From the NCBI GenBank assembly GCA_958510825.1, contig OY294048.1, positions 23,524,674 through 23,588,673 on the forward strand: a stretch of 64,000 nt of DNA, written 5' to 3'. The notes under the pieces are model-generated. The model saw only the letters and a list, made by a program, of their open reading frames with translations. It searched no databases and was not told where the DNA came from. This document shows, in pieces, positions 1 through 31,997 of this stretch (its first letter is position 1; the number at the start of each line of letters is the position of its first letter). Position numbers and translations under genes: made by a program. Origin of the DNA: Brachypterus glaber (taxonomy: Eukaryota > Arthropoda > Insecta > Coleoptera > Kateretidae).

Positions 1-705
1 CAATATTATAGTCAAACAAAGCATCTTGTACAAGCACACGAAGAATTAGAAACAGTCAGGCAATTTTCAAACGAATCTATAACTGATTATTTTAAAAGAA
101 TTGAAAAAATAAAAAATGAATGTATTCAATCTGAAATAAACAATTGTGAAGATTTTCAGGATTTACCTGGATTAAAACGATCTATTCAGCGCACTGCTTT
201 ACGTAGGTTTATAATTCATTGTAAACCAGAAATCAGTCAAATGTTACGAGCTAGAGAACTTAATTCACTTAATGATGCCTATAATCTTGCTCTGCAAGAA
301 GAAAAAATAATCAATTATACAAAACAAAAAACTAATATAAATATGTATTGCAAATATTGTAAAAATAATTCACATAACTCGCAAAATTGTCGCAAAAGAG
401 GTCCCTATAGAGGTCCACCTATCAATACAAATCAAAATAGGTATACAAATCCTAATTTTTCAAATAATAATTTTTACAATAACCCTTCTATGTCAAATAG
501 TTATAATAATTCTTATCAAAAATTTTGCAATTATTGCAAAAAGCCAGGACATTTAATTTCTGAATGTAGAAAAAGACAATTTAAAAATAATCAATTTTCT
601 AATCCAAGAGTAAATCATTTAAACTGCCAAGGGTCCACTGTGTCGAATGTCCCTCAGGATACGGACCACAAAAAAGAGGCATTCCCATCTCAAAACCAGA
701 AATAA
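1..705 (+). CDS. gag: Gag polyprotein, 5' end outside window (element 1)
   Basis: The frame is open from base 1 to the TAA at 703-705, so the N-terminus lies outside the window; the ATG at 241 is internal. The visible part has an alpha-helical capsid-like stretch followed by two perfect CCHC zinc knuckles (C-x2-C-x4-H-x4-C) at about 349-390 and 526-567, separated by an Asn/Tyr-rich linker. Zinc knuckles bind genomic RNA during particle assembly. The following pol is in the -1 frame and is open upstream of the gag stop, so Gag-Pol is probably made by -1 frameshifting; an A-run at 670-675 lies in the overlap. Family assignment (Ty3/Gypsy, errantivirus-like) rests on the adjacent pol and env. 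Confidence 0.9.
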   Translation, partial: QYYSQTKHLVQAHEELETVRQFSNESITDYFKRIEKIKNECIQSEINNCEDFQDLPGLKRSIQRTALRRFIIHCKPEISQMLRARELNSLNDAYNLALQEEKIINYTKQKTNINMYCKYCKNNSHNSQNCRKRGPYRGPPINTNQNRYTNPNFSNNNFYNNPSMSNSYNNSYQKFCNYCKKPGHLISECRKRQFKNNQFSNPRVNHLNCQGSTVSNVPQDTDHKKEAFPSQNQK

Positions 706-776: not shown

Positions 777-3700
777 ATGACTAATGCCTTAAATAAACAT
801 ATAACATTCTTAATTGATACAGGTTCTACTACGACTATTGTAAAATCAACGGCTTTAGTACCTCATTTGACCCCTTTAGATAAGAATGATCTCATTGAAA
901 TAAAAGGTATAACAAACGATAACTCCATACAATCCTTCGGGTCAGCAAATTTAGAATTTATCATAAATGATATAACTATTCCTCACAAAAGTCATGTCGT
1001 CAGTGGTGGCGAATTAAATACAAATTTTGACGGTATTTTGGGTACTGATTTTCTTAAAAAACATAATGTCTTACTTGATCTTTGTAATAATAATATAATT
1101 ATTGATAATAAAAAAATAAAACTTAATAAAGAAATTTCACCGAAAGAAATAATATTGGAAAAATCACAAACATCAGAAAATAAAATAAAAATTCCGCCTT
1201 ATTGTGAATTTATTGCTGAAATAAATATTTCACAGAACAATTTAAAATATGGTCTCATTGAGAAAAAACAAATTCATCCTAATGTTTTTATTCCCGATAT
1301 TTTAATTAATAATGATAATCATAAAGCAATCATACCTATATTAAATATGAATGAAAATGAAGTTTTAATTGAAAAACCTACTTTAGATTTAGTAGATTTA
1401 AATAAATTTGAAGAAATTAATTATTTTAATTCAAAAATAAATAATAATCAAACTAATAGAAATAAAATATTAAAAGAAAAAATTCATACTGATCACTTAA
1501 CTTCCGATGAAAATCAAGCCATTCTAAATATTTGTGAAGAATTTTCAGATTTATTTCACTTACCTGGTGAATATTTAACTTCTACAAAAACTCTAAAACA
1601 TTCTATTCATACAAAACATGACGCTCCTATAACTTGTAAAACTTACAGGTATCCGAAAGTACATGAACAAGAAGTTAATTCTCAAATAAATCAAATGCTT
1701 GAACAGAATATTATCAGACATTCTAAATCACCTTATTCTAGCAATCTATGGATTGTTCCTAAAAAACTAGATTCCTCAGGTAAAAGAAAATGGCGACTTG
1801 TAATAGATTATCGGAAATTGAATGATATTACTATAGGCGATTCTTTTCCTTTGCCTAATATTGAAAATATCTTAGATCAACTCGGAAATGCTGTATATTT
1901 CACAGTTCTAGACTTATCCTCTGCTTTCCATCAAATTGAAGTGGAAGAATCAGATAAGTGCAAAACCGCTTTTTTTACTCCATCAGGACATTACGAATTT
2001 AATAGAATGCCTTATGGATTAAAAACCTCCCCCGCGAGTTTTGTTAGGAACATGTCGATAGTATTATCCGGCTTAATTGGCGAAAAATGCTTTTGTTATT
2101 TAGACGATATTATAGTTTATGGCAAAGACCTTGCTGATCATATTAATAAACTTAGGTCAGTATTTCAAAGATTAAGGGAACACAATTTAAAATTGCAACC
2201 CGATAAATGTGAATTTTTACATAGGGAAATTAAATTCTTAGGACACATTATTTCAGATAAAGGTGTAAGACCAAATCCAGAAAAGGTCGAAGCTATTACA
2301 AATATTGCTATTCCTAAAACTCAAAAAGACGTAAAGTCTTTCCTCGGATTAGTTGGCTACTATAGAAAATTTATTCCTGATTTTTCAAAAATCGCTAAAC
2401 CTTTAAACACATTATTAAAAAAAGATTCTCAGTTTGTCTGGACAGATAAATGTAACTTATCCTTTCAAAAATTAAAAAATACTTTAACAAGGGAACCTAT
2501 ATTACAATATCCTAATTTTAATAAAAAATTTAGTCTTACTTGCGATTCTTCAAATGACCAAATATCAGGCATATTATCGCAGGAAACTCAAGGAAAGGAC
2601 TTACCAATTTCCTATTTTTCAAAAACCCTTAACAAGGCGCAACAAAATTATTCTACTACTGAAAAAGAATTGTTTGCAATCGTAGAGTCTTGTAAACATT
2701 TTAGACCTTATCTTTTTGGGAAAAAATTCGATATATATTGCGATCATAAACCATTAATTTGGTTAAATAACTGCAAAGACCCTTCTAGTAAACTCTTAAG
2801 ATGGCGCTTAAAATTAATGGATTACGAATATGAAATAAAATATAAAGCGGGAAAAGATAATATTAATTCTGATGCACTTAGTCGTTTAAAATTAGAAAAA
2901 ACTGATTCAAATAATCAAGTTTCTATTGATAAAATCATAAATAATAACTTAAATGTTAAAAATGACAATGTCATAATAATTCATGATAACATTTTTAACC
3001 CCTTAAATAAAAGATCATTAGCTCACTGTGTATCAAAAGATTTTTACATGAATAAAGGTATTGCACTGGATTTTAAAAACAAATTTAAGTCTGTCGATAT
3101 ACTCAAAAATCAAAATAAAAAAGTAGGTGAAGTAGCTTTTATAAATGTAAATGGTAGAAAAATATATTACTTAATTACAAAAGAAAATTATTTTGATAAA
3201 CCTACTTATAAAACTGTTTCTCAGTCTTTAGAATATTTAAAATCGTTATTAATAAAATTCAAAGAAACTGAAGTTTCTATGCCACAAATCGCTTGTGGAT
3301 TAGATAAACTCGAATGGAATATTATTTTCAATTTAATTAAATTTATTTTTAAAGATTCAAAAATAAAAGTATATATTTTTATAAAAGAACAACATAATGT
3401 TAACTATATTCAACCAGAAGAAGATTTAACATTTGATAACTTTAAAAATTTTCATCAAAGAGAAATTAGAATTCCTAAACCAACTATAGTAAATACTCCC
3501 TTAAACAGGATAAAAAACTTTGTAATTCCTTTATCCTGTGACTTATCAAACAATAATAAATACATTGATTATATTTACAAACACAATTTAACTATTCCTA
3601 ATGCGAAAATAAAAGAAATAAATTTAAAACGATTACCTCAACAATCTCTTTATTTAGCTTTTATTAAGGAATTTATAGATGAATCCGCACTTTATGAAAT

Positions 3701-5057
3701 TCTATTTGACACACTTTATAATCTTAGACTTTTATTGCAACATAATGAAACTAAATATTTTACTATACCAGATATTTCAGAAAATAATGATATAATTAAA
3801 CAAGATACATTTTATACTTTATTATATTTTCTATTTAGGGACTTTAAGTATGAAATACTTTCCGATGAACGTATTACTTTAACAGACCCAGATCTAATTA
3901 AAATTATTCTACAAGAAAATCATGATTTACCATCTGCAGGTCATCAAGGTTTTGAACGAACCTATGAAAAAATTAAACAATATTATTTTTGGGATAATAT
4001 GAAAAAAGAAATTAAAGACTATATTAAAAATTGTCAAACATGTCAAAAATCTAAAACAGACTTTAAACATAATAAAAGCCCCATGTTAATAACTACCACA
4101 GCTTCTAAATTTAATGAAAAAATTGCAATGGATGTAATCGGACCTTTACCAGAAACTCAAAATAATAACAGATTTATTCTAACAATTCAAGATGATTTAA
4201 CTAAATTCATCCAAGCATTTGCTATGCAAAATCATGAAGCAACAACTATTGCTATATATTTAATAAAATATTGTTCACAATTCGGTTTTCCTAATGTACT
4301 CTTATCAGATCAAGGTCGCGAATTTACCTCAAATATTATAAAGGAACTTAATAAACTTTTAACAATAAAACATAAGTTTACAACTCCTTATCATCCTGAA
4401 AGTAATGGAGCACTAGAACGTACCCATTTAACATTAAAAGAATATTTTAAATGCTATGTTAATAAAGACCAAAACAATTGGGACGAATTTTTAAATTTAG
4501 CAATTTTCAGTTATAACTCAAGTATACATAAGTCCACTCAAAAAACCCCATACGAATTAGTCTTTGGACAACGTGCAAGAATTCCTAGCCATATAAATTC
4601 TCCAAAATTTAAACCTAATTATTCAGATTTAGCTAATGATATAACTAATAAATTAAGAATTTTACGAGAAACTGCAAGAGATAATCAAATAAAAGCAAAA
4701 CAAAGTTCAAAAAATTACTTCGATAAATCTCATAATAGAGAATATAAATTCTACGCAGATCAGTTAGTATTATTATACGACAGCTTATCTAAAATTAAAA
4801 AGAAAAAGCTTACTCCGAATTATAAAGGTCCCTATAAGATAGTACAAGTACATGATAATAATACTGCGACTCTATCTATAAATAATAAACTTAAAACGCA
4901 TCATTTTAATAAATTAAAACCGTATATTGTTTCAGACAATGACATTGAAGAAAACAATGAAAATGTTGAATCAGAATCAGAAATTGACCTTCGTAGTATT
5001 CCTAGTAATTTTCCTTCTGACTTTACCGAATCAAGGCCTAGCACGTCTCAGCAATAA
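777..5057 (+). CDS. pol: Pol polyprotein with protease, RT, RNase H, macro domain, integrase (element 1)
   Basis: Uninterrupted 1426-codon frame. Order: aspartic protease (IDTGST near residues 13-18); reverse transcriptase with LDLSSAFHQ motif and YLDD catalytic site (Y441-D444); RNase H beginning near D590 (TCDSS) and ending near DALSRL (about 700); a TARG1-like macro domain at about 731-870; integrase with HHCC zinc finger (about 1049-1087), D,D-35-E core (MDVIG, SDQGREF, ESNGALERT) and a C-terminal GPY motif (about 1350). The macro domain plus linker makes it longer than a plain errantivirus Pol. The first ATG is at 777, but the frame is open further upstream and overlaps gag, which suits a -1 frameshift fusion rather than initiation at this ATG. 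All catalytic residues that I can check are present, so this copy may be functional. Confidence 0.95.
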   Translation: MTNALNKHITFLIDTGSTTTIVKSTALVPHLTPLDKNDLIEIKGITNDNSIQSFGSANLEFIINDITIPHKSHVVSGGELNTNFDGILGTDFLKKHNVLLDLCNNNIIIDNKKIKLNKEISPKEIILEKSQTSENKIKIPPYCEFIAEINISQNNLKYGLIEKKQIHPNVFIPDILINNDNHKAIIPILNMNENEVLIEKPTLDLVDLNKFEEINYFNSKINNNQTNRNKILKEKIHTDHLTSDENQAILNICEEFSDLFHLPGEYLTSTKTLKHSIHTKHDAPITCKTYRYPKVHEQEVNSQINQMLEQNIIRHSKSPYSSNLWIVPKKLDSSGKRKWRLVIDYRKLNDITIGDSFPLPNIENILDQLGNAVYFTVLDLSSAFHQIEVEESDKCKTAFFTPSGHYEFNRMPYGLKTSPASFVRNMSIVLSGLIGEKCFCYLDDIIVYGKDLADHINKLRSVFQRLREHNLKLQPDKCEFLHREIKFLGHIISDKGVRPNPEKVEAITNIAIPKTQKDVKSFLGLVGYYRKFIPDFSKIAKPLNTLLKKDSQFVWTDKCNLSFQKLKNTLTREPILQYPNFNKKFSLTCDSSNDQISGILSQETQGKDLPISYFSKTLNKAQQNYSTTEKELFAIVESCKHFRPYLFGKKFDIYCDHKPLIWLNNCKDPSSKLLRWRLKLMDYEYEIKYKAGKDNINSDALSRLKLEKTDSNNQVSIDKIINNNLNVKNDNVIIIHDNIFNPLNKRSLAHCVSKDFYMNKGIALDFKNKFKSVDILKNQNKKVGEVAFINVNGRKIYYLITKENYFDKPTYKTVSQSLEYLKSLLIKFKETEVSMPQIACGLDKLEWNIIFNLIKFIFKDSKIKVYIFIKEQHNVNYIQPEEDLTFDNFKNFHQREIRIPKPTIVNTPLNRIKNFVIPLSCDLSNNNKYIDYIYKHNLTIPNAKIKEINLKRLPQQSLYLAFIKEFIDESALYEILFDTLYNLRLLLQHNETKYFTIPDISENNDIIKQDTFYTLLYFLFRDFKYEILSDERITLTDPDLIKIILQENHDLPSAGHQGFERTYEKIKQYYFWDNMKKEIKDYIKNCQTCQKSKTDFKHNKSPMLITTTASKFNEKIAMDVIGPLPETQNNNRFILTIQDDLTKFIQAFAMQNHEATTIAIYLIKYCSQFGFPNVLLSDQGREFTSNIIKELNKLLTIKHKFTTPYHPESNGALERTHLTLKEYFKCYVNKDQNNWDEFLNLAIFSYNSSIHKSTQKTPYELVFGQRARIPSHINSPKFKPNYSDLANDITNKLRILRETARDNQIKAKQSSKNYFDKSHNREYKFYADQLVLLYDSLSKIKKKKLTPNYKGPYKIVQVHDNNTATLSINNKLKTHHFNKLKPYIVSDNDIEENNENVESESEIDLRSIPSNFPSDFTESRPSTSQQ
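2964..3386 (+). other. TARG1/OARD1-like macro domain inside Pol
   Basis: Residues about 731-870 of Pol match the TARG1 (OARD1) type of macro domain along its length: a HDN segment at the ADP-ribose-binding start, SLAHCVSKD, NKGIALDF, VGEVAF, YYLITKENYF, KPTY and SMPQIACGLDKLEW. In human TARG1 the catalytic pair is Lys84 in the YLITK motif and Asp125 in the GLD motif, 41 residues apart. Here the equivalents are Lys802 (3180-3182) and Asp843 (3303-3305), also 41 apart. TARG1 removes ADP-ribose from acidic residues and from DNA. Seen: motifs and spacing. Known: TARG1 chemistry. Inferred: that the retroelement domain has the same activity. Confidence 0.88.
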
Positions 5058-6978
5058 ATATGAAATTATTCCATTACAAACAACGGCTGGTCTATTATAC
5101 CATAATCTTGGTAAAACGCATATATCAAATGACAACTTCGCACTTTTAACTTATTATAATCTTTCTCACATTGATTATCAAATAAACCAAATTTATAACT
5201 ATTATACCTTATCACTAGATCTATGCAATTTGGAACAAGCCGATCGCATAAATTTAGACTGTAAAAATCAATTAAGATATATAAATACTAAATTTTTATC
5301 TATTAAAGAATCTTATAAAATAATCTCTCATGAACTTAATGTTCTTACACGCAGAAAACGTGGTATCTTAAATGTAGTCGGTGACGCATTTAAATGGCTT
5401 TTTGGCACACCAGATGCTGATGATGCTCAATTTTATACGGACTCTATTAATCAAATTATAAATAATCAAAAACAAACTGAAGTTTTAATGCAACAGCAAG
5501 TTTCAATAATATCTCAAACAATATCTAATTTTAATAATTCAGTTATACGCATGAATGAAAATATTTTAACTTTAAATAATAATCTTGAAAAATTTAATAA
5601 ATTTACTAAAGAAGTACAAGACTTTAAACAACAGTTGGATTTTGAAATTGAAATATCTAATCATTTAATTTTACTTATTGAAATGACTGACGAAATTCAA
5701 ACTCTTTTAGAAAACTATGTTAATGACGTTTCGTTAATTCAAAATGGCATTATAAACTATAGAATTTTATCACCAGAAACATTATATCGAGAGTTACAAA
5801 AAATATCTACAAAATATACATTACCTATTCCATTATCTTTAGAAAATATTTATCATTATTATAAAATAATAACATTAAGATCATTTATAAAAAGTAAATT
5901 ATTGGTAATATCTTTTGAAATACCAGTTGTTTTAGCAAATGAATATGATTTGTATCAAATATTCTCTCTTCCAAACCCACATAAAGACGATGCTTCCTTA
6001 TTCTCATATATTGAGCCTTCTAAACCTTATATCCTTTTATCCTCTTCTCGGACATTTTATATTATGATCGAAAATCTTGAACGATGCACTCAATACATTC
6101 CTTCAAAATGGATATGCAAAAATCTACCAACTTTAAAGAAAACTACAGCAGACGAATGTGAAGTTCAACTCCTTATGAAAACAACAATCAAAATCCCAAA
6201 AACTTGTCAAACAAGAAATCTTGTAGCAGAAATGGAAATTTGGCACCAGTTGCAACAAAATCAGTGGTTCTATGTAACTTCCAAACCAACCCAATTATCA
6301 ATTCTTTGTGACAAAGATGACAGCATTCAAGAAGTCATAAAAAACGCAGGACTTTTAAATTTAAAATCGAATTGTAAAGCATTCACAAATCAAGTTTCCT
6401 TACAAACACAAATGGTTATGGAAACATATAATCTAACCAACGAAATCCCACTCACAGATATAACTGAAGATGACTGCTGCCGAAAATTAAGAAAAAATCT
6501 TACACTCAACGAAATCCATTTGGATCCAATAAAATTAAATAATTTGGATCTTCATGAATTCAAATATGCCCAACAAAAACTTAACCAGTTTGATGAGCAA
6601 CTTCAAGAACAACTCAATAAACCTTTTATTGTCAAACAAACATTTTGGTATACTTCAACCCTTTCAATAATCACTGGCTTGGCAATATTATATATTTTAT
6701 ACAAACTTCTAAAACAATTTGGATTCACAAACATTATAGGAAAATGTTTAAGAAAAACTTCTTCATGTGGCCCATGCGTACAAATCTACAACCAATGTCA
6801 TAAAGAGCCCATTCAGCATCCAACATTAATCCATTATGACGCAGAACTTCAACGATTGAACTACCCCATTCCGTTAGAGTATACAACTAAAACCCAGAAC
6901 GATGAGCCCCAAGATTCCACTTCTTCAGTTAGACGTTCCAGTCGACTTCAGAAGAAAAAGAAAATAAATCAAAACTGA
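4927..6978 (+). CDS. env: Envelope fusion glycoprotein, errantivirus type (element 1)
   Basis: Frame of 683 codons overlapping the pol 3' end by 131 bases in another frame. Seen: a hydrophobic signal-like segment at residues about 22-40; a furin-type site RRKR ending at residue 145, followed by a Gly-rich hydrophobic stretch like a fusion peptide; a long ectodomain with heptad-like Asn/Leu-rich helices and several cysteines; a single transmembrane segment near 576-598; a Cys-containing, basic cytoplasmic tail. This layout is that of insect errantivirus Env proteins, which are related to baculovirus F fusion proteins. Env of this group is usually translated from a spliced RNA, so the ATG at 4927 may not be the true start. 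The frame is intact, so infectious spread is possible in principle. Confidence 0.85.
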   Translation: MFQTMTLKKTMKMLNQNQKLTFVVFLVIFLLTLPNQGLARLSNKYEIIPLQTTAGLLYHNLGKTHISNDNFALLTYYNLSHIDYQINQIYNYYTLSLDLCNLEQADRINLDCKNQLRYINTKFLSIKESYKIISHELNVLTRRKRGILNVVGDAFKWLFGTPDADDAQFYTDSINQIINNQKQTEVLMQQQVSIISQTISNFNNSVIRMNENILTLNNNLEKFNKFTKEVQDFKQQLDFEIEISNHLILLIEMTDEIQTLLENYVNDVSLIQNGIINYRILSPETLYRELQKISTKYTLPIPLSLENIYHYYKIITLRSFIKSKLLVISFEIPVVLANEYDLYQIFSLPNPHKDDASLFSYIEPSKPYILLSSSRTFYIMIENLERCTQYIPSKWICKNLPTLKKTTADECEVQLLMKTTIKIPKTCQTRNLVAEMEIWHQLQQNQWFYVTSKPTQLSILCDKDDSIQEVIKNAGLLNLKSNCKAFTNQVSLQTQMVMETYNLTNEIPLTDITEDDCCRKLRKNLTLNEIHLDPIKLNNLDLHEFKYAQQKLNQFDEQLQEQLNKPFIVKQTFWYTSTLSIITGLAILYILYKLLKQFGFTNIIGKCLRKTSSCGPCVQIYNQCHKEPIQHPTLIHYDAELQRLNYPIPLEYTTKTQNDEPQDSTSSVRRSSRLQKKKKINQN

Positions 6979-7139: not shown

Positions 7140-7568
7140 TATCTTAAGTTAATTTTATATTTTAACATTTTTGAGATTTTTGTTCTCACTTTTTTCAAAA
7201 GCTCAACAAAAATCTATAACAGCCCCGAGGTGTTGGCGCCCCCTAGAACAATGGCCTCTTTGTCTATCTTATTTTGCTGACTTAAGCAGTATTCATTTAA
7301 TATAAATAGAGCTCCGCCTAGATTACCCTCAGAGCTGTATTAGACCTGAGTTAGATTGCACGTATCTTATATTAGAGTTATCTCAAATCTATCTCAAAGT
7401 TATAATCTTATAAGTATTAAATAAATATCATTATAAATAATAAACAAGTGTCTAAATCAAGAACATCTAGAACATTTAAACCTTATAGTGAAGAAACTGT
7501 GACTATAAATACAAAATAACTGTGAAGTTATAAAATAAGTTTCGGAACCTCTTAATAAAAGGTTGCCC
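7140..7568 (+). mobile_element. LTR-like segment downstream of env (3' LTR of element 1), boundaries unresolved
   Basis: After the env stop come about 160 bases of AT-rich sequence and then promoter-like and 3'-end signals expected in an LTR: a TATA box (ATATAAATAG) near 7300, and several AATAAA-type signals near 7417-7440. The segment ends immediately before a tRNA-Leu primer-binding-site match at 7569. I could not fix the 5' edge because the second LTR of element 1 is outside the window. AGTTA sequences near 7122 or 7147 are possible starts by analogy with element 2, whose LTR has AGTTA...TAACT ends. Confidence 0.5.
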
Positions 7569-7581
7569 TGGTGTCAGAAGT
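7569..7581 (+). other. Candidate primer binding site, tRNA-Leu type
   Basis: TGGTGTCAGAAGT is the exact complement of the 3' end (with CCA) of insect tRNA-Leu, 13 bases. A primer binding site is expected after a 5' LTR, not after a 3' LTR, so its position here suggests that the LTR also served a second, tandem copy now mostly lost. The match is short and could be coincidence. Confidence 0.45.
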
Positions 7582-7646
7582 AAATTAACCTTTTTTTTAT
7601 GTTGTGTTGATCAAGGAATACAACAATATATTCAAAGTGAACGGTT

Positions 7647-16292: not shown

Positions 16293-16619
16293 AGTTATGT
16301 TACCCTAATAACATTGTTTTATATGTATAAATTAAGACGTAGTTATTTAAGTATTGTTTCCAGAACATTATATTCTAGAATAATCCTTGATAAATCATAT
16401 ATAAAGGAACTCGCCAGCCGAGACAATAATTATTATTAATTCATATTTTAACCACTTAGCATGTAGTATATTTGTAGTAGTTATAGTTTGTAGATTTTTG
16501 TGAAGTTAGTGAATAAACGGTTGCAACTATTAATTCCTTCAATCCGAAAAATCCAAGAACCTACAAAAATAAAACAACTCCTTTTTAAAAAAAGAGTTGG
16601 TTAAGCTCCCAACTTAACT
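16293..16619 (+). repeat. Element 2 5' LTR
   Basis: Ends AGTTATG and TTAACT. A TATA box (TATATAAAG, 16398-16406) and an AATAAA signal (16512-16517) mark the likely U3 promoter and polyadenylation signal. Near the 3' end is an 8- to 9-bp inverted pair around ACTCCTTTTTAAAAAAAGAGT. Confidence 0.95.
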
Positions 16620-16629
16620 GGCGCAGTCG
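16619..16629 (+). other. Element 2 primer binding site, tRNA-Ser type
   Basis: TGGCGCAGTCG is the complement of the 3' end of insect tRNA-Ser; its first T is also the last base of the LTR, an overlap known from errantiviruses. Confidence 0.85.
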
Positions 16630-17320
16630 TACGGATTTTTCAAAACTAGTCGTATGCATTTCATAACTGGTGCAGTATTTTGAAGAAATAAATTTCCAAG
16701 AAAACCGGACAAAAATTGCCAACCTTTTTGGAAGATAGTTGACCAATCACCCTAGGAACCTGGACAAGAATTGCCAAATCTCCTTTGAAACTTCACATAC
16801 AGGAAACCTGGACAAGAATCGCCAAATCTCCTGATATTCAGAAAAGCAGTCGTAGCAGAAACGTTATCTTCAAGAGTACGGTTACCATACCGAAGTAACA
16901 AGTATGTTCTTCAATTATCTTTTCATGTAAGTGATTGAACTGTTCTTTTTGAATTAATTAAAATTTTAAGTTAAAAATACAGAGAATTTATTGAGAAATA
17001 TAAAATACAGAGAATTTATTGAGAAATATAAAATATAGAGAATTTATTGAGAAATATTAAGAAAAGAATAAAAGAAATATAATTTGATTAAAAAATTAGA
17101 AATATAAGTATAAAAAAATAAAAATATAAATATTACATAGAATTTAAGAATTAATTAAGAAAATATTATTGAAACTGAACAAACATAAACGTTATATTAA
17201 AATCACATTTAAAATCACATATATTTTTAGTTTAAGTGTAATAATTAACCTTAGTTTAAGTATCCTTAGTTTAAGCATATTCTTAAAATAATATATTTGC
17301 ACTAATATTTCAATATTACA
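16630..17320 (+). repeat. Element 2 leader with two sets of direct repeats
   Basis: Non-coding leader. Three related copies of about 28 bases, containing GGACAAGAATTGCCAAATCT, lie at about 16704, 16759 and 16806. Three near-identical 28-base tandem units (GAGAATTTATTGAGAAATAT core) lie at 16979-17058. Repeated leader motifs can bind Gag or host proteins; nothing here shows which. Confidence 0.7.
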
Positions 17321-18445
17321 ATGGCAAATTATCAATTATTGAAATTGCATTTAGATACAATTAATTCATATGATGGCAATACGCATACATTAAACATTTT
17401 TTTGAATAATTGTGAAAATTTTATAGAATTATTTTCTGATCCGGAAGATAATCAGTTGAATGGCTTCATTTTGAAAGCATTAATTAGTAAATTGCAAGGT
17501 AGAGCATTAAATTTAATAGGTTCACGTATAAATATTCACACTTGGGAAGAAGTAAAAACTATTTTGACACTATTTTGACAACGAAATCTCGATTGTTTAG
17601 TTCAAGAATTGTACATGGTAACTCCTCAAAAATTTGAGACACCTTATAATTTTGGTATAAGATTACAAGATTTGAGAAGTCTTGTGTTGTCAAAGTTAAA
17701 TATAGAAGATATCCCTTTAGCCGTAAAATTAATAAAAATGCAAGAATATGAAAATTTAACATTAAAAACCTTTATTCGTAATCTAACGGGACAATTACAA
17801 AGTAATGTTAGGCTTCGAAACCCAGATTCATTAGAAAAAGCAATGGCTTTAATTTTAGAAGAAGAAAATTTCCTTTATACACAAAAGGAAGATAATAATT
17901 TAAATCAATTTAATCATAAATTAGCAGAACGTATAATTCCTAATACCTTCAATACACAACAAAAACCCTTTAATTTTAATCAATTACAAAAACCATTTAA
18001 TTTTCAACAACCAAATATTTTTAAACAACCTTTTAATCAATTTAATCAAAGACCATATCAAAATTTCCCTTATAATCGTCAAAACTTTAATAAACCTTTT
18101 CAAACATATTATTACGGTCAAAAACAACCCCTTAATCCTTTTAAACAACAATCACAATTTTTCCAACGACCACAATTAAATAGACCACAATTTAATTAAA
18201 ACCAAAGAAGATATCCTGAACCAATGGATACAACTTCAGGAAATACACGCATTAATCACCAAAACCCACAAACTCAACGTCCACGTAATTATTTTGAACA
18301 GAATAGGTCTACGAACCCTAATTTTAAATTTGAAGAAGTTTACAATATAAATACTAATAAAAATACTGATAATACTGATAAAAATGAACGGAAAAATCGA
18401 CAGAGAAATTTTCCTATTGCTCACGATCAAACCTCAATAAAGTAA
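17321..18445 (+). pseudogene. gag: Gag of element 2, two in-frame stops
   Basis: One frame of about 374 codons interrupted by TGA at 17576-17578 and TAA at 18197-18199; no frameshift is needed. The N-terminal half is a helical capsid-like region (TPYNFG, RLQDLRSL). The C-terminal half is rich in Phe, Gln, Asn and Pro with repeated KPFNF/QPFNQF units and ends with a PEPMDTTSGNTR segment of the kind seen in errantivirus Gag. Unlike element 1 it has no CCHC zinc knuckle. The following pol is in the -1 frame, as in element 1. Confidence 0.8.
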
Positions 18446-20563
18446 ATAAAGAAACACAAACTAATATGATAACTCTACAAATAAATCATAAATTTACAAA
18501 AAAAATATTCCCTTTACCACATATTTTTATTAAAGAATTAAACGCAAAGTTCTTAATTGATACGGGTAGCACACGTAGTTTAATGAATCCTCAACTCGCA
18601 TATAAATATTATAAAGAATATATATATAATGAATTATTTAATATAGAAACAGCACATAATATAAGTCGTCACAATGAAGTTATGAAAATACCATTGTTTA
18701 ATATTTTTAAAGTAAAACAAACTCATAAATTTTATTTATTTAAGTTTAATAATAAATTTCAAGGTTTAATTGGATTAGATTTACTTCAACAATTAAACGC
18801 AAAAATAGATTTTCAAAATAAATGTATTGTAACAAAACATAATAAAATACCGCTTAGTACAACTGAAATGCTAAATACGAAAATAACTAATAAAGCACGT
18901 ACACCTAATTTACATTATAGATTAAGTATTTTGCCGAGAACACAATTAATAATTAAAGTACCAGTAAAAATGAAACAAGGACTAGGTATATTACCATATA
19001 TCAAGTTCAACGAAAAAGTAGAATTACCACATGCACTTGTAAACGTTAAAAATAATTATGCCTATACTAGTATTTTAAACTCAAGCACGCACACTGTAAA
19101 TATAACTTTAACTGAACCACTTGATATTGAACCTTTTCAAGCTTATGAAACATATAATATAAATAATTTTACTCAATTTAACAATGAATTTAATAAATAT
19201 AACGAATATGATAATGAATTAAAAGCAAATTTAAAAAATTTACGTACAAAACATTGCAATCAAGAAGAATATAACGCTTTACGAAAGTTATGTTATGAAT
19301 ATAGAGATATATTTTATTGTGAAAAAATTCCTTTAAGTTTTAGTAATCAAATTCAACATGAAATTAGATTAACAGATAATACGCCAATCTTTGTAAAAAC
19401 ATATAGATACCCTGAAGTACATAAACAAGAAGTAAAATCACAAATGGAAAAAATGTTAGAACAAGATATTATACAACCCTCAGTTTCACCTTTTTCAAGT
19501 CCTATATGGGTAGTTCCAAAAAAAATGGATGCCTCAGGAAAACGAAAATGGAGAATTGTTATCGATTATCGCAAATTAAATGAAAAAACTGTCGGAGATA
19601 AGTACCCTTTGCCAAATATAACAGATATTTTAGATAAACTCGGGAAAAGTCAATATTTCACAACTTTATAATGAAATATGTTTAGTATATCTCGATGATA
19701 TCGTAATTTTTAGTAGTAGTCTACAAAAACATATTGAAAACTTAAAAAAAGTATTTAATAGATTAAGACATGCACAATTTAAAGTACAATTAGATAAATC
19801 AGAGTTTTTAAGAAAAGAAGTTAAATTTTTGGGACACATTGTCACACCTGATGGAGTTAAACCTAACCCAGATAAGTTAAATGTAATTAAAAAATTCCCT
19901 ATTCCAAAAACAGTAATGGAAATAAAAAGTTTTTTAGGATTAGTTGGATATTATCGAAAATTTATAAAAGATTTTGCTCATATAACAAAACCTTTAACTC
20001 AATGTCTTAAAAAGAATAAAAAAATAATACATAATGCAGAATTTCAAAACGCCTTTTTAGTTTGTCAAAATCTTTTGATGAACGCCCCAATTTTACAGTA
20101 TCCAGATTTTTCAAAATCATTTATTTTAACTACTGACGCATCAAATATAGCCTTAGGCGCTGTTCTTTCACAAGGAACAGTAGGCTCAGATAAACCAATT
20201 AGTTACGCATCACGAACTTTAAACGAAACAGAACAAAAATATAGTACTTATGAAAAAGAATTATTAGCAGTAGTTTGGGCATGTAAACACTTTCGTCCTT
20301 ATCTTTACGGTAGCAAATTTACAATTTACACCGATCATCGTCCATTAATATGGTTATTTAATTTAAAAGAACCCAATTCTAAACTAATTAGATGGCGCTT
20401 AAAATTAGAAGAATTCGACTATACCCTCGTATATAAAAAAGGAAAAACAAATACTAATGCAGACGCACTTTCGAGAATTAAAATAAACAATATAAATAAT
20501 ACAGTAAAAATAAACAATGAACTATATAAAGATTTACTTAGAAATAAAATATCGCAAAACAAT

Positions 20564-20986
20564 AATATAGAAATTATTCATGAAAACATATTTACGGAAA
20601 CTAATAATTACTCATTAGCTCATTGCATATCAAGTGACCTTAACATGAATGCAGGAATTGCCTTAGAATTCAAACAAAAATTTAATTCTATAGAAAATCT
20701 CAAAAAACAAAATAAGCACGTAGGAGAAGTTGCATATATAAAATTACAAAACAAATACATATATTACCTAATTACAAAACAAAACTATTATAATCAACTA
20801 TTTTACAAGGATTTATTTAAAGCACTATTAAATTTAAAACGACTTTGTTTACAAAATAAAGATTATAGAATTTCAATGCCACAGATTGGTTGTGGACTTG
20901 ATAAATTAAAATGGAATATAGTATACAGTATGTTAAAAATAATATTTAATAATACACCAATAAAAATACAAATTTATATTTTTAAT
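20564..20986 (+). other. TARG1-like macro domain in element 2 Pol
   Basis: Same domain, same place (between RNase H and integrase) as in element 1: [56 protein letters not shown]. The TARG1-equivalent lysine is at 20777-20779 and the aspartate at 20900-20902, again 41 residues apart. The frame across the domain is open although Pol as a whole is broken. Confidence 0.87.
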
Positions 20987-21453
20987 CCCAATTTAAAAAA
21001 TAATAAAGATTTAAATGTATACCCTTTAAATCTTAATGATAATGATAACTTAAATGAAGAAAAAGAAAATGACGCCTTACTCGACTATTTACAACACGAA
21101 CTAGCAAATCAGTCATTAATAAATAATCCCGGAGATATTAAAAATGATATTCTTGAATTTTTAGAACAATATTCAAATGAAAATGAATTAAATTTACCTT
21201 ATGAAACCCCTTTAACAGATTATTTAACACAAAATAAAACTCAATCTCAAGATCAACCTCAAGCAAAAAAACAAAAAAAAATGAAGAAGAAGAAATATTA
21301 GATAAATTATTTAATGAATTAGAAAGTTTACTTGAAGACTCTCAAAAATTAAATGAAACTTTAGATTTACCTTCTACTAGTGAAATAACTCCTGAACCAA
21401 TAGGTCAACTAAAAATAATAATTCATTCTGACATACAATTAAAACCACCACAA

Positions 21454-21490
<37 letters not shown>

Positions 21491-22677
21491 GTAATGGTAA
21501 TGGTAATGGTAATGGTAATGGTAATGGTAATGGTAATGGTAATGGTAATGGTAATGGTAATGGTAATAGTAATAGTAATGGTAATGGTAATGGTAATGGT
21601 AATGGTAATGGTAATGGTAATAGTAATAGTAATAGTAATAGTAATAGTAATAGTAATAGTAATAGTTATAGTTATAGTTATAGTTATAGTTATAGTAATA
21701 GTAATAGTAATAGTAATAGTAATAGTAATAGTAATAGTAATAGTTATAGTTATAGTTATAGTAATAGTAATAGTAATAGTAATAGTAATAGTAATAGTAA
21801 TAGTAATAGTAATAGTAATAGTAATAGTAATAGTAATAGTAATAGTTATAGTTATAGTTATAGTTATAGTTATAGTTATAGTTATAGTTATAGTTATAGT
21901 TATAGTTATAGTTATAGTTATAGTTATAGTTATAGTTATAGTTATAGTTATAGTTATAGTTATAGTTATAGTTATAGTTATAGTTATAGTTATAGTTATA
22001 GTTATAGTTATAGTTATAGTTATAGTTATAGTTATAGTTTTAGTTATAGTTATAGTTATAGTTATAGTTATAGTTATAGTTATAGTAATAGTAATAGTAG
22101 TAAAATAATAATAATAATAATAATAATAGTAATGGTAATGGTAATGGTAATGGTAATGGTAATGGTAATAGTAATAGTAATAGTAATAGTAATAGTATTA
22201 GTAATAGTAATAGTAATAGTAATAGTAATAGTAATAGTAATAGTAATAGTAATAGTAATAGTAATAGTAATAGTAATAGTAATAGTAATAGTAATAGTAA
22301 TAGTAATAGTAATAGTAATAGTAATAGTAATAGTAATAGTTATAGTTATAGTTATAGTTATAGTTATAGTTATAGTTATAGTTATAGTTATAGTTATAGT
22401 TATAGTAATAGTAATAGTAATAGTAATAGTAATAGTAATAGTAATAGTAATAGTAATAGTAATAGTAATAGTAATAGTAATAGTAATAGTAATAGTAATA
22501 GTAATAGTAATAGTAATAGTAATAGTAATAGTAATAGTAATAGTAATAGTAATAGTAATAGTAATAGTATTAGTATTAGTATTAGTATTAGTATTAGTAA
22601 TAGTAATAGTAATAGTAATAGTAATAGTAATAGTAATAGTAATAGTAATAGTAATAGTAATAGTAATAGTAATAGTA

Positions 22678-22723
<46 letters not shown>
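21454..22723 (+). repeat. 1.27-kb microsatellite of AAT and GGTAAT/AGTAAT/AGTTAT hexamers in pol
   Basis: Blocks of (AAT)n, (GGTAAT)n, (AGTAAT)n, (AGTTAT)n and (AGTATT)n alternate with almost no other substitutions. In the pol frame they would encode Asn, Gly-Asn, Asn-Ser and Ser-Tyr repeats. They sit in the acidic/Asn-rich linker between macro domain and integrase; element 1 has no such array. Long frames with alternating Val/Met/Ile on one strand and Thr/Ile on the other are repeat translations. Confidence 0.97.
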
Positions 22724-24050
22724 AACCCAACATTCAGTCGCAAATGAAACCACTAATAATGGAATCTTAATTTTAGATGACATTTTAAATAATAAAGCAA
22801 ATCAAATAATAGTTTTTCCACAGCCTTATTTTAAATTAGATGTTACACATGAAAATTATGAAAATTTAAAAATAATGATAGTTAAAATGCCGACTATTAA
22901 AAATGAACATTTTATTTTGAAATTTTTAAAAGAATACACAGCTCCACAAATAACTTATTACATACATTTTAAAACTGACCAATTATATATAGATTTTAAT
23001 GAAACTTATTTAAAATATTTTAATAAAAATCAACCCCAACTTGTTCGCTGTTTAAAATTAGTTAATACCGTTCCAGAAAACACCGATCAATTACTTTTAA
23101 TAAGAAATCATCATGAAGGAAAAGTAAATCATAGAGGAATACAAGAAACTTGAATGAATATTTAAAAAAAAATTATTATTGGAAGAAAATGCAAGAGACA
23201 ATAACAAAATATATAAACGAATGCGATATATGTCAAAGAGCCAAATATGCACGAAAAACCCCTTATGTTCCCTTAGTACATACAGAAACCGCTTCAAAAC
23301 CATTCCAAATAATACACATAGATATTTTTACGTATAATAAAAATAATTACCTTACTTTAGTAGATTCTTTTACAAAGTTTGCACAAGCAATATATATAAC
23401 AGGAAAAACGGCAATTAATGTTAGTAATGCATTAATTAGATATTTTAGTAGATTTGGAATCCCTGAAAAAATAATCTCTGATAATGGCTCTGAATTTCAT
23501 AATGAAACTATAAAAGAATTATTAAAAATACATAAAATTAAAATACATTTTATTACCCCATATCACCATGAAAGCAATGCTATAGTAGAACACTTACATT
23601 CTAGACTTATTGAATATTTAAGAATTTTACAAGAAACGTATCCCAATGAAAATGAAAATATAATTTACTATGCAATTTTAGGTTATAATACCTCAATTCA
23701 TAAAGCAACAGGTTACACACCTTTTGAATTAGTTTTTGGACATACAAATACAAGAAATCCAAATGAACTATTTTTACCCGAAATATTTTATTCAGATTAT
23801 GTTATAAATCATAAACAAAAATTAGATAGTGTTTATCAAACAGTACATGAAAAATTAGATAATAATAAAGAAAGAGTTTTAAACAAACATAATAGACACG
23901 GAGAAAACATTGAATTTAAAATAGATCAAACAGTTTATAAACAAAATCCCCTAACACGAAATAAAAAAAGTAATAAATTTTTAGGTCCTTATAAAATACT
24001 AATGTTCCTTACCCATAATCGAGTTAAAATGAAAAACCTAAAAAATCATA

Positions 24051-24271
24051 AAGCTGAAGTTTGCAACGTTTTTTTGCAACGAAAATTCAAATAGTATATT
24101 AAAGTACTAGTTTCATAACATACGTTTTTAGGGCACGAGTACAAGTTTAGAAAACAAGCCGCCTGCGGCGAGTTTTCTAAAGTACTAGTGCGCTAAAAAC
24201 GTGTTATGGAATAAATGCTTTAATATACTATTTATATTTTCGATGCAAAAAAACGTTGCAAACTTCAGCTT
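24051..24271. mobile_element. 221-bp foldback element (MITE-like) at the end of pol
   Basis: The ends AAGCTGAAGTTTGCAACG and CGTTGCAAACTTCAGCTT are perfect inverted repeats and the complementarity continues, with some mismatches, for about 100 bases per arm to a CG-rich centre (GCCGCCTGCGGC, about 24161-24172). CATA is duplicated at 24047-24050 and 24272-24275. It interrupts the integrase C-terminal region. It is non-coding, so it would depend on a transposase elsewhere; 4 bp is the only clue to the superfamily. Confidence 0.85.
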
Positions 24272-24279
24272 CATAAAAA

Positions 24280-26136
24280 ATCAAAAATTTGAAATAGTAC
24301 ATATTAAAGAATTAAGAAAACCTCCTTCTGTTTCAGATGGGTATTCCTTCCCTTCATCCTCGCGGACTCAACATTTATTAATTTAAATGAAAACCCAGGT
24401 ATTTTACCAATTAAACTTGGAAACGCACAAAATCAAATTAATCATTGGTCCTTTATACAAATATACGATATAAGTCAGATAATTAAAGAATTTAATATAT
24501 TACAAGAGTATTTAACAAATTTTAAACTCTTATTAAAAACTTCACATGAAAAGTTAGATTATTTATTCTTAACTTCTTATACTTTAATTCAGACTCTTGA
24601 GAATAAAATACAACTTCAAATAGAACAAATAAACCCTTTATATGAAAGTAGTCAAAACAGACAAAAACGCGGATTAATTAACGCCTTAGGAACTGTTATA
24701 AAAGTATTTACTGGAAATTTAGATCAATCAGATGCAGAAAAATACGATACTGCATTACAAAGTTTATATAATAATCAAAATCAAATAAAAACCCTCATGT
24801 CAAAACAAATAACAATAATAGATGATTCAATTAAAAAGTTTAACAAAACAATGCAAAAACTCACTCATAATCAAATCTTATTACAAGCTCGAATCGCTGA
24901 TATTGAAAAAATATTAAAAAATGTACAATTTGAAGAATTAACCAATACTCATATCCTTTGCTTATAAATAATAATTACACAAATACAAACTACCTTTCAA
25001 ATACTATATGATCTTTTGAAAGAAATAGAAATTGCCATAACATTTTCAAAACTGAATATTTTCCATAATTCCATGATTGAACCAAATAATCTATTAGAAA
25101 AAGTTAAACGTATTGAACCATATTTATTAAATATTAATAAATTACCTTTTGAACCTATATTAGAGAATATATTATTTTATGAACAAATTATTGAAATAAA
25201 AAGTTATAGTAAAAATAATCAAGTTGTATTTATCGTTGAAATACCAATTGTTGAGAATACAATATATAATTATTATAAGTTAAGTTCATGTCCAGTACCC
25301 TATAAAAACACTTTTCATACAATTTTACCTAATTCTAAATTTCTTATAATGAATGAACAAAATTATGTTTTAACTAATGATCACTGTAAATTAATTACCA
25401 TGAATATATATTTATGTAAAAACTCAAATTCTTTAAAAATACATGAAAACGAAAATGTACCATGTGAAATACAACTTCTTAATTATCACAAAAATATTAG
25501 TAATTGTCATCAAATCCCTGTCGAAATTAACACTGTAAAAGTAGAAAAATTAGAACAAAACAAATGGTTAACTATAATACCAGAATCAATTGTAGCAGTA
25601 GAAACCTGTAATAAAAATATAACAAATATACCTTTACATGGAACTTATTTAATAACATTAGATTTTCAATGTTCTATAAAACTTAAAAATATTATTATAC
25701 AAAATTATCATGAAACGAAACCGGATTATTCTAATATAATATTACCCAGATTAAATATTACTTATAAACAAATAATATTAAATAAAATAAAAAAATAAAA
25801 ATAAAATAATATTAAATAAAATATAAAATATTAAATATAATTAAATATTACTTATAAACAGAAATTAAATTAAAATATCAACCATTGAAATTAGACGCTG
25901 TTAATTTAAATGAGTTACACAAAATACATAGTACACTGGAAACTCAAAAGATAGAAACTGAAAAGTTATTACTTGATCCAGTTCATTTTAATAACATAAG
26001 TATATGGACTATTTTACTTTATATAATTTTAATTATATTAATTTTAAGTCTTTTGTATTATCTTAAAAATAAAACATTAACTCTCCCAAAATTGAAAAAG
26101 AAACTTTTAAATAAAAGAAATTCAAATAATAACTAA
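24280..26136 (+). pseudogene. env: Env of element 2, broken
   Basis: A frame without an early ATG runs from about 24325 to the stop at 24965-24967: a short hydrophobic signal-like stretch (WVFLPFILADS), an ectodomain start and a furin-type RQKR site near 24660 followed by a Gly-rich stretch. After a frameshift the ectodomain with cysteines continues at 25016-25798, then a short AT-rich duplicated stretch, and the transmembrane end at 25885-26136 (ILLYIILIILILSLLYYL). The layout equals that of the element 1 Env. A pyrimidine-rich TTCTGTTTCAG at 24326-24336, just before the signal-like codons, is a plausible splice acceptor. Confidence 0.8.
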
Positions 26137-26235
26137 GAATTTAAAAACAAAATATAATGTAAAACTTGACACAATTGTCGAAGAAAATATACCGACAGAT
26201 GGAAACTCTGGAATAGTTTCATCTAAGGGGGGAAG

Positions 26236-26562
26236 AGTTATGTTACCCTAATAACATTGTTTTATATGTATAAATTAAGACGTAGTTATTTAAGTATTGT
26301 TTCCAGAACATTATATTCTAGAATAATCCTTGATAAATCATATATAAAGGAACTCGCCAGCCGAGACAATAATTATTATTAATTCATATTTTAACCACTT
26401 AGCATGTAGTATATTTGTAGTAGTTATAGTTTGTAGATTTTTGTGAAGTTAGTGAATAAACGATTGCAACTATTAATTCCTTCAATCCGAAAAATCCAAG
26501 AACCTACAAAAATAAAACAACTCCTTTTTAAAAAAAGAGTTGGTTAAGCTCCCAACTTAACT
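26236..26562 (+). repeat. Element 2 3' LTR
   Basis: Identical to the 5' LTR except A at 26463. The purine tract TAAGGGGGGAAG (26224-26235) directly precedes it and should prime plus-strand DNA synthesis. Confidence 0.95.
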
Positions 26563-29059: not shown

Positions 29060-31997
29060 TTAAAAAAAAATATTGAAATGATCTGTAGATTCAGAATCAT
29101 GCTCAGAATCATATTCAATGTCTTCTACTATGTGCGGCTTTAAATCACGCACATTCCATTTCCCTTGGGCCTTGTTTTGGTCGTCAACCAATTCATAAGT
29201 CCAGGGAGAAACTTTTTTAGAAATCTGAAAAGGACCCTTAAATTTAGGAGCAAGTTTAGCTGAAAAAAAATTAATTGCGTCTGACTTTACATGATTCTTT
29301 ACCCACACCTGATCACCAATATATTATACTGCACATTTCTTCTCCGTAGATTATACCTCTTTTGGCTGACCTGAGAGACTTTAAGAAGATGTTTCCTAAC
29401 TTTGGCATAAATATTTGAGAATTCTGCGTTATGCTGCTCTATGGTACTAGTGTTTTCCCCTAACAACTCTGTTATTTTATGGTCATCACCGTGGATGCAC
29501 ATTTCACGCCCAAAATTAATAAGGTAAGGAGAGTATCCTGTACTTTGGTGTTTCGATGTGCGCATAGCACAAGCAGCTTTTTGCAAATAATACTCCCATT
29601 TACGCTGATTACCCTTTAAATATGAACCCAAAATTACCTCAGAGTACGGTGCTGACGTTCGCAAGGATTCGACTCGGGATGATAAAGTGGAGTGTAGGAA
29701 ATCTTAACACCATACCTTTGAGAAAGATTATTTAGCTCTTTTCCAGCAAATTGACGTCCATTGTCCATTATAAGGACCTTTGGAGCACCAAATAATAAAA
29801 ACAAATTGTCCTCTATATTTTTACACACCACTTTAGCAGTTTGGGAACGTAATGGAATAAAAATACAAAATTTACTAAAATAATCTTGTATACTAATTAT
29901 ATATTTAAAACCCGAAACCGATCTTGGTAATGGCCCTACTAAATCCACAGAAACAGTAACCCAGGGCCTATCTGTCTCTGGACGAATGCACATTTTCCCC
30001 GCTGGGGCCTTTTTCTCCGGTTTTTGCGCCAGACAGACTTTACATGACCTTACATACCGAGTTATATCATATTTAAATCGAGGCCACCAAAATTTTTGAA
30101 ATAATCGCGCCGAAGTTTTAAAAATACCACAATGTCCTGATGTTTCGGCATCATGACATTGAAAAATGATATCTCTACGGTGGGACTTGGGAACAACGAT
30201 TTTCCAAGCACCCTTACAATTTTTATAAACTAAATTATTTTCCAAACGCCAAAGTGGGTATTTAAGAAGGTTTTTATCAATTTTTTCTTTTATTTTATCT
30301 AACCATCGACACTTATATTGCGGGAACAAAGGGGAATCTAAATTAACTGAATCAATAACAGGAACTGAGCGAGAAAGTAAATCTGGCACGTGATGTTCTT
30401 TTCCAGGCTTGTGTATGACATCAAAATCATATAAACCTGTTCCCTCAATATAAGGACGGAACTTTTCTATACTCCATACTATAGCTAAACACTCTTTCTC
30501 TGTGGTACTCATCTTTCGCTCTTGCGATGTTAATGATCGACTTCCGTAACAGAGCACCTTCTCCCCCTCCTCGAAAATCTGCGTTAAAACTGCACCCAAA
30601 CCAAAATCGGACGAGTCGCAATGTAAATAAAACTTACGTTCCCAATCAGGACAAGTCATGATAGGAGCTGCAATTAAACATTCCTTAAGCTTTATAAATG
30701 CTCTATCACATTCCCCGTCCCAACAGAATTTTTTATCTTTCTTAACAAGATTTGAAATTGGAGCAGCCTTAGTGGAAAAGTCGGGAATAAAACGGCGGTA
30801 CCACCATCATACCAAGCACACGGCGTACCTCGCGAACATTTGTAGGAATAGGTACTTCTAAAATAGACCTAACTTTGTCGGGATCTACAGATAACCCATC
30901 ACGATTGACTACATAACCCAAAAATTTTAGCTCAATGTCAAACCTGCCGCCTTCAGTCGTTCTAGTACCTTTTGCAAGAGTACCATGTGTTCTTCAAAGG
31001 TTTTTGTCACTAAAATGATATCGTCCAAATAAACTAATACATTTTCGTCCAAATCCCCTAAAAGCTTATCTACCAGACGCTGAAATGTGGCGCTTGAATT
31101 ATGAAGGCCCATTGGCATTCGTTTGGACTTTGAAAGAAACCCCGTCCCGGAATCTTAAAAGCAGTAATCGGTTTAGCCCTATCAGTTAGAGGAACTTGCC
31201 AAAACGCACTCTTAATACCCAAGGAAGTGATAAACTGTGCATTCGGCAAGGGATAAGCATCACGCTCTGAGACCTTGTTGACTTTTCTAAAATCAACGCA
31301 AAATCTATAACTATTATCCTTCTTTCGGACCATCACAATGTTATTTGAGCAGGGGGAATATGATTTTTCAATAATATCTTGGGCCAAAAGTTCATCTACT
31401 TGCTGGTGAGCATGTTTTAATAATGCGGGTGAGATAGCATATTGTGCTTGCCTTATAGGTTCTGAATTTACTTTTATATTATGTTTAATATCTTTTACAC
31501 AACCTATCTCATCCCGATTATCAGTTTTTACCAGCTCCAAAATTTTATCTATTTGTTTCTTTTGGTCCAAGGTAAGTGTACCTTCCGTATTTAACTCCGC
31601 AATGTTAAACTTCTCCCTATCCTCTAAAAATACCCAACTACCTTAAATTTGGAATAATCCCCGCTTGTTTCCAGAAATCTGACCCCAAAATGAAAGAATG
31701 AGGCAAGGATGGTATAGTCAGCATCTCCACCAAGTGAAACCGCCCTTGAACAATAACCGGAACTGAAAAACTACCAGTCACCTCACAAGAACTACCATCA
31801 GCTACATTACAAAAAGGTATATTGTTCGGTTGTAAATTCAAGCCCAGACTCACCAAAGTTTTAACACCTACACCCCCTACCACAGTCCTAGAAGCCCCAG
31901 AATCTAATAAACCAAAACATTCTCTACCTAACATTTTAAAATTTAAATATGGACGTTCATCACCTTTAACATTAGCAAACAAAAAATCAAGAAACAC
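29060..31997 (-). pseudogene. pol: Pol of element 3: protease, RT, RNase H, integrase in broken frames
   Basis: Read on the minus strand: aspartic protease (31997-31638, LLDSGASRTVV); RT fingers and palm (31570-31070), where the first catalytic motif reads LGIKSAFW in place of the expected Asp-containing motif; RT palm (31118-30927, YLDDIILV); RNase H (from 30659, LHCDSSDFG to DLLSRS) with an internal deletion of about 30 residues; integrase with HHCC finger (ETSGHCG, CKVCLAQK), DDE core (VSVDLVGP, MDNGRQF, ESNPCERQH) and, after a frameshift near 29650, further integrase (to 29299) and a GPF chromodomain-like end (29308-29060). At least five frame breaks. Confidence 0.88.

Follow-up and report, generated by a model that had tools for sequence, protein, structure and literature searches.

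Ty3/Gypsy elements of the beetle Brachypterus glaber with a predicted TARG1-type macro domain in Pol

Element 1 and its macro domain

A stretch of 64,000 nucleotides from the beetle Brachypterus glaber (contig OY294048.1 of assembly GCA_958510825.1, positions 23,524,674 to 23,588,673 of the forward strand; hereafter the window) opens within a retrotransposon with long terminal repeats (LTRs), here called element 1. Its Pol carries, between RNase H and integrase (IN), a macro domain that sequence match and structural modelling assign to the TARG1 type (ALC1-like class), with the catalytic pair of human TARG1. The features of element 1 are as follows.

1..705, forward strand: 3' part of gag (the window starts within gag); open frame with weak zinc-knuckle and gag matches
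777..5057, forward strand: Pol frame, from the list of open reading frames (ORFs) and Pfam matches on pieces
2430..2900, forward strand: RNase H query piece; RT_RNaseH E 1e-35
2961..3392, forward strand: predicted TARG1-type macro domain; Lys802 codon 3180-3182, Asp843 codon 3303-3305
3420..3860, forward strand: probable second, decayed macro domain, from hhalign and a two-domain model
3861..4520, forward strand: integrase zinc-binding and core pieces; Integrase_H2C2 E 2.9e-22, rve E 3.9e-11
4927..6978, forward strand: env-like frame; Baculo_F E 1.5e-40
7231..7625, forward strand: 3' LTR, 395 bp, matching the 5' LTR

The Pol frame, described in an earlier note on this DNA as intact over 1426 codons, is indeed open from 777 to 5057. 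It encodes protease, reverse transcriptase (RT), RNase H, the macro domain, a second macro-like domain and integrase, and its pieces match Pfam RVP, RVT_1, RT_RNaseH, Integrase_H2C2 and rve. Matches of the gag piece to zf-CCHC_2 (E 0.0018) and Retrotrans_gag (E 0.0031) are both below Pfam cut-offs. The 5' LTR lies to the left of the window (L053, 3721-4115; L numbers denote stretches of the B. glaber genome). The LTR pair starts with TGTTGG, ends with ACAACA and differs by 1 mismatch in 395, and ATAT on either side of the element is the target site duplication. Because the LTRs are near-identical and flanked by ATAT, element 1 is a recent, proper insertion. Its LTRs, target site duplication and Pol order of protease, RT, RNase H and integrase are those of a Ty3/Gypsy LTR element, here one with a baculovirus-F-like env frame; a Baculo_F env frame also stands behind pol in L033, L049 and a second element of the window, element 2. 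Of the label Ty3/Gypsy errantivirus-like, used in the earlier note, the Ty3/Gypsy part holds, and the errantivirus part is a putative classification by env frame. Just past position 4115 of L053, behind the 5' LTR, a stretch starting with TGG is a candidate primer binding site, presumably resembling the 3' end of tRNA-Leu. The gag frame (1-705) and the stop-to-stop Pol frame (from 603) overlap at 603-705, one base apart, as in programmed -1 frameshifting.

A complete TARG1-type macro domain between RNase H and integrase, with Lys802 and Asp843 as catalytic pair 41 residues apart, was the central claim of the earlier note, and database match, alignment and superposition bear it out. By phmmer, the best matches of piece 2940-3539 were five PDB sequences of human TARG1/C6orf130 (E 6.6e-33 to 9.7e-33), followed by a row at E 0.015. 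An AlphaFold2 model of the domain has the minimal macro fold as in TARG1 and superposes on TARG1 structure 4j5r over 141 residues (model 9-149 on chain 12-152), without gaps and with a shift of three, so that Lys802 falls on residue 84 and Asp843 on residue 125; the structural check proposed in that note thus came out in favour of TARG1. The limits it gave (2964..3386) are slightly narrow; about 2961-3392 is better for the domain. A MacroD-like domain of the RNA-virus type was considered and rejected, sequence match and superposition both favouring TARG1. On the other side, Pfam Macro (PF01661, cut-off 22 bits), named in that note as a check, gives the element 1 domain no match; its results elsewhere are mixed, with scores of 34.1 (L033), 33.9 (L225), 23.8 (element 2), 22.6 (L226) and 20.1 (L224) and none for L034. 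Hydrolysis of ADP-ribose esters is the activity predicted for the domain from its sequence and model.

All 23 aligned rows (15 element rows and 8 other proteins) carry both the lysine and the aspartate, and so do 73 of the 74 own-genome copies read, a count that includes the window copy twice (as WIN and L002). Active-site residues are kept across families that are about 50-64 percent identical. For the macro domain the ratio of nonsynonymous to synonymous substitution rates (dN/dS) was 0.09 to 0.26 in pairs where it could be computed, synonymous sites being saturated in many pairs; in the pair L034/L045 the macro value (0.09) lay below those of RT (0.29) and IN (0.18). Among close copies of element 1, the ratio of nonsynonymous to synonymous differences (pN/pS) was 0.28 for the macro domain, 0.22 for the second domain and 0.22 for RNase H (n=30 each), and 0.20 for IN (n=28). 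The Pol macro is under purifying selection.

The adjoining region of Pol, 3420-3860, is probably a second, decayed macro domain peculiar to the element 1 lineage, as judged from profile comparison and modelling. Against a macro profile its hhalign score was 49.6 (94.6 percent), with 60 column shuffles reaching at most 21.3, and against a profile of non-element proteins alone it was 37.3 (81.4 percent). Strands and helices follow the same order in both domains of the two-domain model. The second domain has no AHC motif, GIA motif or glycine loop; the lysine aligned with the catalytic lysine is kept in all four aligned sequences, and the aspartate is not. Modelled alone, the domain is poor (predicted local distance difference test score 65), and in a Foldseek search with its model macro domains headed the list with no match at E 0.001; a structure search with the two-domain model barely probes the second domain. 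The stretch between macro and integrase of other lineages was considered as a further decayed macro and rejected (hhalign 14.2, 50 shuffles up to 18.0). The same stretch scored 18.4 when compared with the second domain of element 1, with shuffles up to 17.6, a marginal result from which we claim no homology.

Copies, docking sites and exchange

The genome searched comprised 648 Mb in 842 contigs, the window's own contig accounting for 48.9 Mb. The element 1 domain has at least 150 matching places in it (150 of 150 scored, of 610 candidates), 129 of the 150 being stop-free within the match, and the element 2 domain likewise at least 150 (150 of 150 scored, of 620 candidates). A one-off insertion or assembly freak was rejected in view of these matches and of the second macro-bearing element in the window. 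In a protein collection queried with the Pol piece and scored over the macro region, 3 of 145 candidates matched, two from Harmonia axyridis and one other, all in the order RNase H-macro-integrase; the macro domain alone as query found 19 proteins of 113-216 aa among 41 candidates. Viral and prokaryote collections contributed 67 and 83 loci (80 of the latter kept), with relatives at 26-43 percent identity.

Domains were mapped in 46 stretches chosen non-randomly from the own-genome matches, and 40 of them contained a macro domain. In 27 of the 40 it is placed between the RT/RNase H part and integrase (L218 has RT without an RNase H match, and L217 RNase H without an RT match), and in 12, all of one family (L033, L049, L204-L212 and L214), after integrase; the remaining stretch, L213, gave no integrase match. 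The gap between RNase H and integrase is therefore only one of two docking sites for the macro domain, both of them adjoining integrase, and several lineages share the arrangement, as do Harmonia axyridis proteins. In L225, of another lineage, the macro follows integrase, and in L224 it precedes it. L033 and L038 are kin by integrase (support 99/98) and less surely by RT (85/87); L038 has its macro at the RNase H site, where L033 has none, and the L038 Pol tail aligns with that of L033 nearly up to the macro and then ends without one. A junction peptide ahead of the macro, IENPVYII, is common to L033 and L225. Post-integrase macros form one clade (98/85), whereas grouping the L033 and L225 integrases together was rejected (approximately unbiased test, p-AU 0.0068). 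Mapped on the integrase tree, the docking site shows two changes, against one on the macro tree. Because of these site changes, the exchange of positions between L033 and L038, and the single clade of post-integrase macros despite the rejected integrase grouping, we conclude that the macro domain moved between sites or between elements.

Movement between lineages is also indicated by the trees of RT and macro, with the qualification that the clades put to topology tests were named after the trees had been seen. By RT, element 1, L031, P0002 and P0003 are one lineage (100/99) and a clade of P0002-P0004 was rejected (p-AU 0.0045); by macro, P0002 and P0003 group with P0004 (99/96) and the RT grouping was rejected (p-AU 0.015). 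The macros of E2, L032, L040 and L041, which are kin by RT, lend exchange no support, a single macro clade for them not being rejected (p-AU 0.059). In the largest macro tree, built without any cellular insect TARG1 and with eight near-duplicate own-genome rows omitted, the 18 Pol macros fall together in one clade, apart from 15 others that include human TARG1 (99/99); within it stand groups of the three collection proteins (97/90) and of own-genome macros (93/89). Rows too short or with a stop were dropped from the trees (macro, L042; RT, L042, L044, L049 and element 2; IN, L047 and L049), and WIN3 was omitted from the later IN tree.

The simplest reading of these trees would be that the domain entered Pol once and was then exchanged among elements within hosts; it may instead have been captured repeatedly, from related hosts. 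A donor of the Pol macro was not found, and a TARG1 gene of the host's own, if there is one, was not among the best 150 of 536 candidates returned for a human TARG1 query, in which repeats came on top. These repeats are another multi-copy family (for example G000 C2:61737123-61737518, reverse strand), with at least about 65 places at 48-56 percent identity among the same best 150, many of its members lying in open frames of about 500-517 aa. L226, a 531-base piece of this TARG1-like family, has the same catalytic pair and a Pfam Macro score of 22.6 (cut-off 22). The best tree does not place it within the Pol-macro clade, though its grouping with Pol macros was not rejected (p-AU 0.133).

Element 2 (16293-26562) is a different young LTR element, its LTRs differing by 1 mismatch in 327. 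Its macro domain also lies between RNase H and integrase, in a Pol that is interrupted.

16293..16619, forward strand: 5' LTR (327 bp matched), 1 mismatch to 26236-26562
19829..21301, forward strand: frame with the end of RT, RNase H and macro, from domain mapping
20555..20989, forward strand: predicted TARG1-type macro, 53 percent identical to the element 1 macro over 141 residues; Pfam Macro 23.8
23150..23770, forward strand: integrase piece, from domain mapping
25016..25798, forward strand: env-like fragment; Baculo_F E 1e-21
26236..26562, forward strand: 3' LTR, from the LTR pair match

Between its macro and integrase parts, 21488-22770 is a long low-complexity stretch with MV, IV and IT runs in several frames. 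A third Gypsy-like piece, 29634-31489 on the reverse strand, gave RT, RNase H and integrase matches and no macro match. Long frames at 34601-37534 (reverse), 52818-55205 (forward) and 60754-61932 (reverse) resemble non-LTR reverse transcriptases, judging from their translations.

Relation to known systems

Human TARG1/OARD1/C6orf130 is a free-standing cellular enzyme of the ALC1-like class, whereas the Pol macro is a domain of a retroelement Pol and falls in a clade of its own. The macro domains of RNA viruses (coronaviruses, alphaviruses) and of some iridoviruses offer an analogy, in that they too are virus-borne macro folds, with removal of ADP-ribose as their work; these are of the MacroD-type class, according to PMC7729036, while the Pol macro is of the TARG1 type and sits in a reverse-transcribing element. 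DarG, the ALC1-like antitoxin of DarTG, is 16-20 percent identical and, as described in PMC7050489, lacks the full TARG1 catalytic pair. Another captured enzyme, the dUTPase of retroviruses and rotifer LTR-retrotransposons, is reported variably between RT and IN or after IN (PMC5408684); dUTPase acts on nucleotides, and the Pol macro would act on ADP-ribosylation.

The earlier note knew of no retrotransposon lineage with a TARG1-type enzyme between RNase H and integrase. Among the matches listed from open-licence papers, none described a macro domain within the Pol of a Ty3/Gypsy element, and two papers on such elements (PMC12992720, PMC12440569) contain no word starting with macro or ADP-ribos. 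Yet some fish endogenous retroviruses are described as encoding CNPase or macro domain proteins in additional ORFs (PMC4977317, citing Basta et al. 2009), and are likewise retroelements with a captured macro domain gene. Compared by that description, the fish case concerns additional ORFs in vertebrate retroviruses, and ours a Pol domain of Ty3/Gypsy elements. A macro domain in endogenous retroviruses is thus precedented; what is unusual here is the TARG1 type, the position inside Pol, the two sites, the exchange and the probable decayed twin.

Possible roles of the domain

We lean, somewhat beyond even chances, towards a TARG1/OARD1-type mono-ADP-ribose hydrolase that was captured into Pol and kept beside integrase, where it undoes host ADP-ribosylation for replication. 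A Ty3/Gypsy group with baculovirus-F-like env frames (in those elements examined) would have taken the hydrolase into Pol, so that it would be made and packaged with Pol and travel with integrase. It would cleave ADP-ribose esters, stripping ADP-ribose placed by host transferases from Gag, integrase, or phosphate ends of element RNA or cDNA, and reverse transcription and integration could then proceed. The working mode would be that of RNA-virus macro domains with TARG1 chemistry, and the placement that of retroviral dUTPase. TARG1 is reported to free Asp/Glu residues and nucleic-acid phosphate ends of ADP-ribose (PMC7050489, PMC6582358), RNA-virus macro domains to counter antiviral PARPs (PMC7729036), and most misregulated mobile elements to go up in Drosophila without PARP-1 (PMC7712786).

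Several points weigh against this proposal. One copy, L223, has Asn in place of the catalytic Asp, the sole exception among the 74. The macro domain is constrained, yet most pairs show weaker constraint on it than on RT, RNase H and integrase, as in L036/L037 (dN/dS 0.17, versus 0.05, 0.10 and 0.08, respectively). Derepression of elements without PARP-1 may be indirect, according to its authors (PMC7712786).

A reader rather than an eraser, binding ADP-ribosylated chromatin or DNA breaks at integrase and steering integration there, seems to us unlikely. A parallel would be the chromodomains of certain Ty3/Gypsy integrases, which may steer integration. The position of both docking sites next to integrase would suit such a role, as would the ALC1-like class, in which readers stand beside erasers (PMC7050489). 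For a reader the Lys-Asp pair is dispensable, and since the pair is kept in 73 of 74 copies a pure reader is disfavoured.

It is similarly improbable that the domain is an eraser aimed at silencing, freeing host chromatin or silencing factors of ADP-ribose and thereby derepressing the element instead of cleaning its own particle. Pol domains are as a rule delivered in low amounts, and this one would arrive with the particle, late for transcription control. The rise of most misregulated mobile elements on PARP-1 loss in Drosophila (PMC7712786) and the silencing of L1 by mammalian SIRT6 through mono-ADP-ribosylation of KAP1 (PMC4695847) speak for such an eraser, but both papers concern other elements or hosts.

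We give little credence to a house-cleaning or metabolic role without host defence, in the manner of dUTPase, for example on O-acetyl-ADP-ribose or on ADP-ribosylated cDNA ends from DNA repair; the dUTPase-like placement, between RT and IN or after IN (PMC5408684), and the action of TARG1 on O-acyl-ADP-ribose and nucleic-acid ends (PMC7050489) agree with it, but it does not by itself explain exchange between lineages. That the domain is a passenger, a host gene fragment carried along without function, is highly improbable, for although in most pairs its rate of evolution slightly exceeds that of the replication domains and a decayed second copy probably exists, active-site residues are kept in families about 50-64 percent identical, an intact macro is kept through the change of site, and dN/dS well below 1 largely refutes it.

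The hydrolase proposal has a bolder form, which we offer tentatively and would sooner doubt than assert. The intact TARG1-type enzyme would be a needed Pol module in several retrovirus-like lineages of beetle-like hosts, adjacent to integrase and passed between lineages; ADP-ribosylation of incoming nucleoprotein or cDNA ends by the host would be a general defence, and the decayed second macro an older module turned binding partner. If true, insects would have an ADP-ribosylation-based immunity against retroelements.

With this domain the TARG1 type joins the virus-borne macro domains, which a 2020 review (PMC7729036) places in the MacroD-type class. Taken by itself, the domain is small and closely related to a human enzyme of solved structure, and it lends itself to direct assay. 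If it works, these elements reveal a host barrier that had to be overcome: that one enzyme was retained, exchanged and moved to new sites in several Pol lineages is circumstantial evidence of ADP-ribosylation hindering reverse-transcribing elements in their hosts. Young, many-copied elements with a close copy of TARG1 suggest that they must undo a host tagging reaction to replicate.
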